Of a stretch of DNA of 64,000 bases, positions 35,382 to 39,950 are shown one piece after another. The notes below the pieces were generated by a model. The model made no database searches. It saw only the letters and a list, made by a program, of their open reading frames with translations, and was not told where the DNA came from. The position numbers were made by a program, and so were the translations under genes. The DNA comes from Herbidospora sakaeratensis (GTDB taxonomy: Bacteria > Actinomycetota > Actinomycetes > Streptosporangiales > Streptosporangiaceae): NCBI RefSeq assembly GCF_001570525.1, contig NZ_BBXC01000007.1, positions 1 through 64,000 of the forward strand. Direction: 5' to 3'. Within the stretch, counting starts at the first letter, position 1; the number at the start of each line of letters is the position of its first letter.

Positions 35382-38093
35382 TCACCGCTTCGCGGCGACG
35401 TCGGCGCCGATGCAGACGAAGCCGGCCGCCGTGACGTCGTCGCCCGCCGCCCGCTGGGTCTCGGCCAGCGCGGTGGCCGCCGGCACTCCGGCCGCGAGCC
35501 TCTGGTGCAGGGCGATCATGAGCGGCCGGGTGCGGGAGTCCGGCACCGGCACCATCGACGCCACCACGCAGCGGGTGCCCAGCGACAGGAAGGTCGTGCT
35601 GAGGCCGAGGAGTTCGTCGCCCGCTCTCACCACCGACCGGCCGCTCTCACACGCGGCCAGCACGACCAGCTCCGGCGGGGTGCGCAGGCGTTCGAGGTCG
35701 TAGACCGTCAGGGGGCCGTCGGCCAGGTGCAGCGAGGAGAAGAGGGGGTTGGCCGTGTTGACCCGGCCGTGGGCGGCCAGATGGGCCAGCCGTGCGCCGT
35801 CGAGCGCGGCCAGCGTCTCTCCGTCCACGGGGACGGTCCCGTGGAGGGCGGCCACCTCGGCCACCTCCGCGACCGCGTCCGGGAGCCCCGGCCCGGCGGC
35901 CACCGCGACGGGACCCTTGCCGGTGGCCGGCCGGACTACGGCCTGACGCCACAACGCGGCCGACGGCGAGACCGCCACCGGACGCCCCGCGCACGACGGC
36001 AGCACCGGCCACGGCAGCCCCTGCAACGGGCCGGTCGGCACGACCACCAGGGGCCGGTCACCGAGCCGCAGCGGCCCGAGCAGCAGGGCGTCGAGCCGGG
36101 CGGCGGCGTGCCGCAACATCCGGGCCGCCGCCGATGGGCCGCCCCTGGTGTCGCCCGACCGGGCCAGCCGCCGCAGCGCGAACGGCACCCGCTCGACCAG
36201 GTCGCGGACCGCGTCCACGGAGCCCAGCGCGGTCAGCCGGGCCCGCCCCGCCACGAGGGTGACCGCGTGGAACACGCCGTCGAGCAGCACGTACTCGACC
36301 AAGGCCCGCTCGCCCAGCAGGGGAGCCAGCGACCCCACCACGCCGGGGGACCGCCGCGTCCGGTCGGGCCCGCGCGCCTCCCCCCGCGCCGCCCGGATGT
36401 GGTCGCGGATGCGGCGCTCCAACGCGGCCTGCCGGTCGGTGACCATCGGGTCTCTGGACGTCCGCGCCTCAGCCGCCACCGCCCGCAGCTCGGCCAGCCG
36501 CTCGGCCAGCCACGGGTCGTCGGGCGGCCGGACCCGGCGCATCAGCAGATGGCTGGCCCGCCCCTGCTCGGCCCACCCCAGCACCTGCGCCGGGCCGCCC
36601 CGGCCCAGGGCCATCCGCAGCCCGAGCTCGGCCAGCTCGACCCGGAACTCGGCCGAATGCGCCCGCAGGTCGGTCGCGCCCAGCGTGGCCCGGTGCTCGT
36701 CGAGCAGCCGCAACCCCCGCCGCACCGCGGCCGCCGCCCCCGCCGGATCGCCGACGGTGAGCCGCCGCAGCGCCTCGGCGTGCCACCCCCGCACCCGCGA
36801 CAACACCGGCCCGCGTAACCGATGCCGCGCGGCCACGCCGAGCAGCTCGACCGCCCGCTCCGCACGCGCGCCGGACACCGTCTCCCATCCTCCGGGCCCG
36901 GAGCCCGAAGGCTCGCGCGCACCGGCTGCCGAGGCCGGAAGCACGGCATCAGGGCCCGGAGCCGGGCCGATGCCGGAGGCCCGGCCGAGGAGCAGGCGCG
37001 CGGCCAGCAGTCGGGCCTCCACCGAGGCCGCCGTCCAGCCCGCCCGGCCCAGTTCCCTGGCGACCGCCTCGAAGCGGGCCGCCGAGACGCCCGGATGCCC
37101 GGCCGCCAGGCGGGAGCGCAGCACCACGAACGCGGCCAGCGCGCGCCACTCCGGGCGCTGCTGGGCGCCGAACTCGCGGGCCGCCAGCCGGGCCGCCTCG
37201 ACCGCGTGTTCGTGGTCGCCCTCCAGGGTGGCGGCGCGGGCGAGCAGCAGGCGTACCTCCGGCAGGACGATCGCGCGGCGGCGGCGGCGCAGTTCGGCGA
37301 CGGCCTCCTCGGCGGCGGCGCGGGCCTCGGCGGTCAGGCCGACCGACAGCAGCAGCTCGGAGCGGTCGCTGAGCAGCCAGCCCAGCTGGTGGGTGCCCAG
37401 GTCGCGGAAGCGGCTCTCGGCCAGGTCGAGATAGCGCAGCGCGCCCGGCACGTCGCCGCGCACCCCCCGCACCCACCCCAGGTTCAGCCGCACCACGGCG
37501 AGCGACAGGTCGAGCCCGAGGTCGGCGCACAGTGCCTCGGCCTCGTGGAAGTCGGCCTCGGCGGCGGCGAACTCGTGGCGGTAGCCGTGCACGATGCCCC
37601 GGTTCGACAACACCCGCTGCAACCACACGTGGTCGTGCGCCCGCCGCAGCACCGGGACGGCCTGGCGGTAGGCGGCCAGCGCGTCGGCGTGCCGCCCCAG
37701 GTGGTTGAAGACGGCGGCCCGCTGGGCGTCGGCCCGCGCCCGCAGCTCGCCGTGCAGGCCGGGCAGCAGGGCTTCGAGGTCGGCCAGGGCCTGCCGGGGG
37801 CGGCCGCGCATGCTGGTCACGAACGCCATCCGGATCCGCGCCTCGGCGGCCAGTTCGGGCGACCCGGCCCGGCCCGCCGTGCGGATCGCCGCCCGCAGGT
37901 GCCGGGCCGCGGTCGCCAGGTCGTCGAGGTGGACGGCGGCGATGCCCAGCGCGCGTTCGGCCCGCGACTGGGCGGCCAGGTCGCGCCGTTCGCGGGCGCG
38001 CGCCGCGATCTCGGCCGCGACGATCACCGCCCGCCCCGGATCGGCCTCGGCGAGCATGAGCGCGGCCCGCGCCGGATCCTGGGTCGTCGTCAC
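35382..38093 (-). CDS. TPR-CHAT caspase-like protease
   Basis: A 903-residue cytosolic protein. About residues 1-520 are tandem helical repeats of the TPR type (for example EADFHEAEALCADLG and GALRYLDLAESRFRDLG), interrupted by a Gly/Pro/Ala-rich insert at about 380-410. The C-terminal CHAT domain (about 630-903) has both catalytic residues of the caspase clan: His 775 in LAHLAAHGRV and Cys 815 in VLAACESGRS. CHAT proteases usually act on one partner protein when a sensor engages their repeats. The start is GTG at 38093. It is divergent, with a 99-base gap, from an intracellular subtilisin-like protease and a third gene, which suggests a protease-based signalling or conflict module. Targets are unknown. 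Confidence 0.87.
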   Translation of the reverse strand: MTTTQDPARAALMLAEADPGRAVIVAAEIAARARERRDLAAQSRAERALGIAAVHLDDLATAARHLRAAIRTAGRAGSPELAAEARIRMAFVTSMRGRPRQALADLEALLPGLHGELRARADAQRAAVFNHLGRHADALAAYRQAVPVLRRAHDHVWLQRVLSNRGIVHGYRHEFAAAEADFHEAEALCADLGLDLSLAVVRLNLGWVRGVRGDVPGALRYLDLAESRFRDLGTHQLGWLLSDRSELLLSVGLTAEARAAAEEAVAELRRRRRAIVLPEVRLLLARAATLEGDHEHAVEAARLAAREFGAQQRPEWRALAAFVVLRSRLAAGHPGVSAARFEAVARELGRAGWTAASVEARLLAARLLLGRASGIGPAPGPDAVLPASAAGAREPSGSGPGGWETVSGARAERAVELLGVAARHRLRGPVLSRVRGWHAEALRRLTVGDPAGAAAAVRRGLRLLDEHRATLGATDLRAHSAEFRVELAELGLRMALGRGGPAQVLGWAEQGRASHLLMRRVRPPDDPWLAERLAELRAVAAEARTSRDPMVTDRQAALERRIRDHIRAARGEARGPDRTRRSPGVVGSLAPLLGERALVEYVLLDGVFHAVTLVAGRARLTALGSVDAVRDLVERVPFALRRLARSGDTRGGPSAAARMLRHAAARLDALLLGPLRLGDRPLVVVPTGPLQGLPWPVLPSCAGRPVAVSPSAALWRQAVVRPATGKGPVAVAAGPGLPDAVAEVAEVAALHGTVPVDGETLAALDGARLAHLAAHGRVNTANPLFSSLHLADGPLTVYDLERLRTPPELVVLAACESGRSVVRAGDELLGLSTTFLSLGTRCVVASMVPVPDSRTRPLMIALHQRLAAGVPAATALAETQRAAGDDVTAAGFVCIGADVAAKR

Positions 38094-38192
38094 GCGTCGC
38101 AGTTTTCCACTCCTGATTTCCGCGCGGGATGTATCAAACGGGTGAGTGCCCGCTCATCAATCGGAAGTGGCGAATCACGCGAGGGAGTTCCC

Positions 38193-39443: not shown

Positions 39444-39497
39444 TGTCCAGACGGGCCGCCCGCCTGCGGCCCTCCGGGCACATGGGAGGAGAGAGCC

Positions 39498-39950
39498 ATG
39501 CGTGACGACGCCCTCATGGAGGAGCTGGCGGCCGCGCTGCGCGCCGCCGACCCGGTGCCTCCCGGGCTGGTCGAGATGGGGCAGGCGATCTACACCTGGC
39601 GGCTGGTCGACGCCGAGCTGGCCGAGCTCAGCTCGCTGGGCGCGGCCGGGCCGCTGGTCCGGGCCGACGAGGTGGCCGCGCTGCGCGACCTGGCGTTCCA
39701 GACCGCGTCGGGCCTGGTGATCGAGCTCGGCGTCAGCGGCGACGTCCTGCTGGGCCAGCTCGACCCGCCGGCCGAAGGCGAGGTCCGCGTCGTCACCGGC
39801 GCGGGGCCCGGCCCGGGGCTGCCCGTCGACGAAGTGGGCGGTTTCCGGATCTCGCCGATCCCGGCGGGCCGGTTCCGGCTCCACTTCCGGGGCGGCGGGC
39901 TGAACGTGGTGACCACCCCGATCTACTGGGGCGGCACCCACGACGAATAG
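39498..39950 (+). CDS. Small conserved protein of the CHAT/S8 module
   Basis: A 150-residue soluble protein I do not recognise as a named family. The first half is helical ([39 protein letters not shown], given here in pieces of the N-terminal 40 residues); the second half is beta-rich ([39 protein letters not shown]). The beta part looks like the small regulatory beta-sandwich often encoded next to actinobacterial ECF sigma factors and CHAT genes. GGGAGGAGAG precedes the ATG. It lies 54 bases after the S8 gene, probably cotranscribed. The last 28 bases overlap the convergent mannosyltransferase gene. Confidence 0.7.

Follow-up and report, generated by a model that had tools for sequence, protein, structure and literature searches.

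A probable ECF54-type protease module without its sigma gene in Herbidospora, and the invariant arginine of its small protein

Related systems and the Herbidospora locus

Genes for carboxypeptidase-, subtilase- and CHAT-domain proteins are reported as conserved neighbours of the ECF54 group of extracytoplasmic function (ECF) sigma factors, for which proteolytic control without an anti-sigma factor has been considered possible (PMC8999054, citing Huang 2015; Casas-Pastor 2021). The passages available from this review place ECF54 in that mechanism class, which is mainly actinobacterial and in which AntA (ECF282) is the only group shown experimentally (PMC8999054). In type III-E CRISPR systems, as far as the available text of the source goes, a tetratricopeptide repeat (TPR)-CHAT protease, Csx29, cuts Csx30, a protein that binds and blocks an ECF sigma factor, CASP-sigma, and the cut is proposed to relieve this inhibition (PMC10028731). 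Here I describe a locus in 64,000 nucleotides of Herbidospora sakaeratensis (contig NZ_BBXC01000007.1, positions 1 to 64,000; the window), where a TPR-CHAT protease, an S8 subtilase and a small protein, called SML below, are encoded side by side, and which looks like a derivative of an ECF54-type module that has lost its sigma gene.

The gene of the TPR-CHAT cysteine protease (35382-38093, minus strand; CHAT E = 2.4e-32, TPR_12 E = 1.5e-9) encodes 903 amino acids with the catalytic residues His775 and Cys815. It is separated by 99 bp from the S8 subtilase gene (38193-39443, plus strand; 416 amino acids, Peptidase_S8 E = 4.9e-19), whose product, cytosolic and without a hydrophobic N-terminus, carries Asp164, His197, Asn283 and Ser374 and has a variable N-terminal region of about 150 residues. 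A further 54 bp (39444-39497), where related modules (e.g. L048, L049, L050) have an ECF sigma gene, SIG, separate S8 from the SML gene (39498-39950, plus strand), which encodes 150 residues comprising a helical N-terminal part, a variable linker and a beta C-terminal part. The three genes with their gaps and catalytic residues are all where a first-pass annotation of the sequence had put them; it overlooked the fourth gene that is usual in such modules, Arg55 of SML, which is invariant, and a promoter-like site (38130-38155). Its statement that no characterised system has exactly this trio holds insofar as I found nothing characterised either, but the carboxypeptidase, subtilase and CHAT neighbours were, by the available text of the review, already in print as the genomic context of ECF54 (PMC8999054). 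Among the papers listed by literature searches, which leave out most subscription papers, none deals with SML, its arginine or the pattern TGTATCA-N16-CTC.

The likeness to ECF54 extends to all three kinds of neighbour around an ECF sigma gene, if the carboxypeptidase is taken to be the match of SML to CarboxypepD_reg, and judged by this genomic context alone SIG probably belongs to ECF54. However, the module of the window and those of the ten other loci of its clade have no sigma gene, and the third protein looks non-enzymatic and carries an invariant arginine in its linker. Like the Csx29, Csx30 and CASP-sigma system, the module combines a TPR-CHAT protease with an ECF sigma factor and, putatively, a protein substrate at one locus (PMC10028731, available passages), whereas it has no CRISPR effector among the scanned neighbours and has an additional S8 protease. 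The window CHAT protein has, like Csx29, TPRs and the CHAT His/Cys dyad, and it matches four PDB sequences, all of them Csx29-type CHAT proteins (best E 0.0037), but it scores only 28.1 bits with the Csx29 model of NCBIfam, NF041237, against a cut-off of 300. Csx30 has about 565 residues versus the 150 of SML, and no sequence similarity between them was found by comparing the SML profile with PDB chains, where Csx30 is not among the matches and the presence of a Csx30 chain in the set was unchecked. The CRISPR Lon protease CalpL likewise occurs with a target encoded next to it, CRISPR-T (CalpT), and with a sigma factor in the neighbourhood, but CalpL is, in the part of the source available, a Lon-type protease with a SAVED sensor (PMC10028731). 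In Anabaena, HetF, after which the CHAT domain is named (PMC9729208), cleaves the negative regulator PatU3, although the accessible text mentions neither a sigma factor nor an S8 protease (PMC12288457).

A recurrent module with an invariant arginine

Clustering of the open reading frames of a first set of loci yields four recurrent families, namely SML, TPR-CHAT, S8 and SIG, the last being an ECF-type sigma factor of about 190 residues (TIGR02937 is matched by 31 of 31 aligned rows, and Sigma70_r2 by all four that were scanned with Pfam). SML was found in 30 of the 60 relatives searched, and its profile has matches in 102 of 296 genomes of the class and in 31 of 296 genomes of the phylum. Loci were read with their surroundings for all 40 SML places of the 60 relatives, for 59 places of the class search picked for genus spread, and for a set of named loci, four of Herbidospora among them; L082 and L083, which duplicate L043 and L044, were left out, as were SIG matches below 90 bits. 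Within 6.5 kb of the 104 occurrences of SML (103 loci), SIG is present 90 times, CHAT 85 times and S8 78 times, with all three present in 60 cases. The corresponding figures are 64, 66, 59 and 44 for the 77 occurrences that have at least 6 kb on both sides. SIG and SML are mostly adjacent, the arrangement recurs in many genera, and no fusions among the four families were seen in the loci of the alignment set. CHAT may also be unlinked: in all eight genomes examined that have an SML locus without CHAT, a CHAT-S8 pair stands elsewhere.

Starting from the other side, with 12 hand-picked loci among 20 regions taken from CHAT places, SML is found beside 11, SIG beside 10 and S8 beside six. In 20 regions taken from the phylum search, which belong to other classes, SIG is present in 16, CHAT in 12 and S8 in 11, and SML stands alone in four. 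The first-pass annotation had proposed a compact protease module with a third gene, to be given up should no neighbourhood be conserved across genera; with SIG, CHAT and S8 within 6.5 kb of most SMLs, the recurrence bears it out. Mirror-tree correlations were not used as proof of interaction, as linkage alone can produce them.

After removal of identical copies and of rows that span less than 60% of the profile, 103 SML sequences were aligned. In two alignments all 103 have an arginine at position 55 of the window protein, and in a third all but one do (102 of 103). The same residue is found in 21 of 21 further SMLs, which come from other classes of the phylum and served as a fresh test, and hence in 124 of 124. 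In the window its codon lies at 39660-39662 (plus strand) in the context LVR/AD. The residue is usually found as [VL]-R-[SAG], a motif present in 87 of the 124 linkers as against 11.4 expected (at most 22) after shuffling each linker, and a looser form is present in 117 as against 32.3 (at most 52); these shuffles rule out a chance alignment of arginine-rich linkers. In 80 of the 124 it is the only arginine of the linker. Arg55 sits between the conserved helical-looking and beta-looking parts at a variable distance from either, with 9 to 16 (once 31) residues before it and 7 to 14 after it, and a clear constraint is seen at two adjacent residues only. Because a short conserved motif lies here in a loose linker of variable length, it is likely a protease cut site, with Arg55 as the proposed scissile P1 residue. 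PatU3 is reportedly cut by HetF at an Arg-Ser site. The first-pass annotation had named the small protein as a possible substrate, which the linker motif makes plausible.

SML itself looks non-enzymatic and is putatively an anti-sigma factor or adaptor. The non-enzymatic domain CarboxypepD_reg is matched by eight of 45 members scanned (Pfam, E <= 0.01) and by the window's own copy at E 0.07 only, and no anti-sigma family of NCBIfam or Pfam is matched by the 45 members at E <= 0.01.

Both proteases appear to be intact throughout. After removal of CHAT rows covering less than 30% of the profile and S8 rows covering less than 70%, the CHAT histidine is kept in 76 of 76 rows and the cysteine in 75 of 75 (9 and 10 of 85 rows, respectively, are gapped at these positions and were not counted), while the S8 triad and Asn283 are kept in 72 of 72. 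The S8 protein falls below the NCBIfam cut-offs for mycosin (70 vs. 278.75 bits) and QhpE (63.9 vs. 165 bits). The largest number of CHAT-domain matches among the 60 genomes searched, 20, is found in the genome that holds L083 (G033), which going by L044 is that of Acrocarpospora corrugata.

Among 7-mers found upstream of the module genes, TGTATCA is the most enriched; it occurs in 26 loci outside the window's clade, where 1.4 are expected, and in all 11 loci of the clade. It is followed by CTC at an offset of 16 or 17 in 49 of the 63 TGTATCA sites in 92 loci outside the clade (about 1.8% expected per offset), and at an offset of 16 in 11 of 11 sites within it. The pattern has the box-and-spacer layout of ECF promoters. 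Of 60 complete sites, 45 are followed within 700 bp by a module gene in the same orientation, with S8 as the nearest gene in 30, SIG in 14, SML in one and CHAT in none; the other 15 are not so placed. In the window the full pattern occurs once, at 38130-38155 on the plus strand, a position shared by 7 of 7 Herbidospora genomes, where it faces S8 and SML as a putative ECF-type promoter. The site is upstream of S8 in 11 of 11 sigma-less loci. It is the position of the pattern within the class that argues for a promoter, and since the window site faces S8 and points away from CHAT, it suggests that S8 is a product driven by the sigma factor.

Three sites (L065, L134 and L154) lie at genes for LuxR-type ATPase regulators. 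Large regulators of the LuxR type are found near SIG genes at L050:11133-13706, L052:9044-11446, L129:5045-7399, L134:13649-15910 and L154:12817-15459, the identification resting on Pfam for L134 and L154 and on inspection of the sequence by eye for L050, L052 and L129. Those of L134 and L154 have a complete site upstream, and those of L050 and L052 have TGTATCA without CTC. Haem peroxidase genes at L048:1267-2898 and L049:3503-5134, with TGTATCA-CTC 115 bp upstream, are possible targets of the sigma factor.

The missing sigma gene

SIG is absent from 14 occurrences of SML, of which 11 make up the window's clade (seven from Herbidospora and four from Acrocarpospora) and three are L064, L137 and L152. 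Since the SMLs of the window's clade nest among SMLs that have SIG in the locus (support of 0.92 for the 14 rows that unite the clade with L048, L049 and one copy of L051), the neighbouring sigma gene was most likely lost in this clade. The window SML is 95-99% identical to those of four Herbidospora loci. The C-terminal tryptophan of SML is replaced by proline in exactly the 11 sequences of the sigma-less clade, the other 92 having tryptophan (85) or a gap (seven), which counts as a single evolutionary event. The three remaining genes are intact, with pairwise ratios of nonsynonymous to synonymous substitution rates (dN/dS) of 0.16-0.57 within Herbidospora; between Herbidospora and Acrocarpospora the ratios are 0.36-0.90, highest for S8, and selection is less clear there.

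All seven Herbidospora and all four Acrocarpospora genomes contain an orphan SIG, which has no match to SML, CHAT or S8 within 1.5 kb; that of the genome to which the window belongs is G000:C14:235927-236478. A tree with 8 of the 11 orphans places them in a single clade (support of 100). Further SIGs are present in the same genomes, and the orphan is the best candidate for a sigma factor that might act in trans on the window promoter. One Herbidospora genome has two SML genes that face each other (L051:8051-9843), beside one of which SIG is present in two short pieces.

A proposed switch and its alternatives

These data are best explained by a derivative of an ECF54-type module that has lost its sigma gene and in which CHAT would cut SML, the cut would release a sigma factor and the sigma factor would induce S8, an explanation that remains tentative and falls somewhat short of probable. 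The TPR part of CHAT may sense a cytosolic signal and switch on the separase-like protease, which, going by the conservation, would cut SML after Arg55 and so between its two parts. As an anti-sigma factor or adaptor, the cut SML would then release the ECF sigma factor, by analogy with Csx30 and CASP-sigma, and the freed sigma factor might transcribe S8-(SIG)-SML from TGTATCA-N16/17-CTC, as the sequence pattern suggests. S8 would thereby be a second protease, induced to end, amplify or execute the response, and in Herbidospora and Acrocarpospora a sigma factor encoded elsewhere would replace the lost one and serve the promoter in trans. A bolder version, which I regard as possible but doubtful, is that of a widespread CRISPR-free switch, in which a separase-like TPR-CHAT protease would cut SML, a new anti-sigma family, once behind its universally conserved arginine and so free an ECF sigma factor, with S8 as the induced second stage, the Csx29, Csx30 and CASP-sigma system as a relative or parallel, and Herbidospora and Acrocarpospora rewired to a sigma factor in trans. 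If true, control of sigma factors by TPR-CHAT proteases would be common in actinobacteria (SML in 102 of 296 genomes of the class) and not special to CRISPR. The data supply a candidate regulator, SML, a prediction of the cut site to a single residue, a promoter pattern and a natural variant without the sigma gene, which make the mechanism of ECF54 testable.

A number of observations weigh against release of the sigma factor by a cut in SML. The published suggestion for ECF54 is the opposite, namely that the proteases degrade the sigma factor and keep it off (PMC8999054, in the passages available), and Csx30 is, according to the partial text of the source, cut after Leu407 and not after an arginine in one Craspase. 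CHAT proteases are related to separase, which is described in the accessible literature as cutting after arginine, but a separase-like arginine pocket in CHAT is unsupported, the position that matches Lys670 of Csx29 in a sequence alignment being variable; an aspartate four residues before it, D852, is kept in 74 of 75 rows. SML has no family in NCBIfam and only CarboxypepD_reg in Pfam (45 members), and its structure model is poor, with a predicted local distance difference test score (pLDDT) of 37, on which the helix/strand split rests. No exact promoter site is found in 48 of 103 loci. Counted over the whole genomes of seven Herbidospora, the pattern has 20 matches, which does not exceed its controls (20 for the backwards and 30 for the permuted pattern), and of 20 regions from other classes 8 contain a relaxed form of it, which stands before a module gene in one or two cases at the most. 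CHAT is located 3' of SML on the same strand in some loci and could share its transcript, so that it would not everywhere be outside the control of the sigma factor. As for the orphan SIG, neither TGTATC nor GTATCA is found in the 400 bp upstream, and the idea that it is the relocated former neighbour was rejected, as its grouping with the sister SIGs has p = 0.009 in an approximately unbiased (AU) test, which covered 34 rows with 8 of the 11 orphans and in which the tested group was named after the tree was seen.

Alternatively, CHAT and S8 may destroy the ECF sigma factor without any anti-sigma factor, with SML as a co-factor. This view is stated for ECF54 in the available part of the review (PMC8999054) and agrees with the co-occurrence of SIG, CHAT and S8, but I consider it unlikely, as the invariant cut-like motif sits in SML and none was noticed in SIG, for which no dedicated search was made. 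Moreover, both proteases and SML have stayed intact where the sigma gene is missing (dN/dS of 0.16-0.57 between Herbidospora sequences), which is hard to explain if the adjacent sigma factor was their only target. Arg55 could also be a structural residue or one in contact with the sigma factor, as total invariance is typical of contacts too; however, the variable spacing to both flanking parts and a constraint confined to two adjacent residues give this possibility a similarly small chance. A two-protease cascade, the reading of the first-pass annotation, here in the form that CHAT activates S8 and S8 rather than CHAT cuts SML at Arg55, would suit the conservation of both proteases and their divergent pairing even where they are split from SIG-SML. 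Yet Arg55 is kept where CHAT but no S8 is found within 6.5 kb (L073, L085, L159, L161, L162, L166 and L170; unlinked S8 was not searched for), and no column of S8 before Asp164 passes the conservation filter and hence no conserved activation site is seen there, which makes the cascade quite unlikely.

The first-pass annotation pointed to the use of CHAT domains in bacterial conflict and suicide systems. In a system of that kind, CHAT would respond to phage attack by triggering S8 or SML, either of which would be the toxic effector. TPR-CHAT proteases are, in the accounts available, tied to the activation of gasdermins and act in Craspase, and paralogues of the module exist within one genome. 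However, the locus adjoins histidine biosynthesis genes (41619-47576 in the window), homologues of several of which stand beside the module in 13 loci (a figure that counts two duplicates), and neighbour genes are common to the loci of Herbidospora and Acrocarpospora; several other genomes have the same neighbour genes around SIG-SML. A PADLOC scan of the trio, YbaK and ten neighbours gave weak or partial matches only, those of the trio being a partial BovA match in the CHAT part (E 3.1e-5) and a subtilase match (E 1.2e-6), and a search of 72,556 plasmids with the SML of a single relative, L059, gave no match. A defence-island setting thus finds no support in the plasmid search, the PADLOC scan or the neighbour genes, and a conflict system is improbable.

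The window contains a second ECF sigma gene at 47569-48762 (minus strand), whose product has a long C-terminal extension and scores 44 bits with the SIG profile, and a small open reading frame on the same strand is found at 48804. I take this sigma factor to be ECF42-like.

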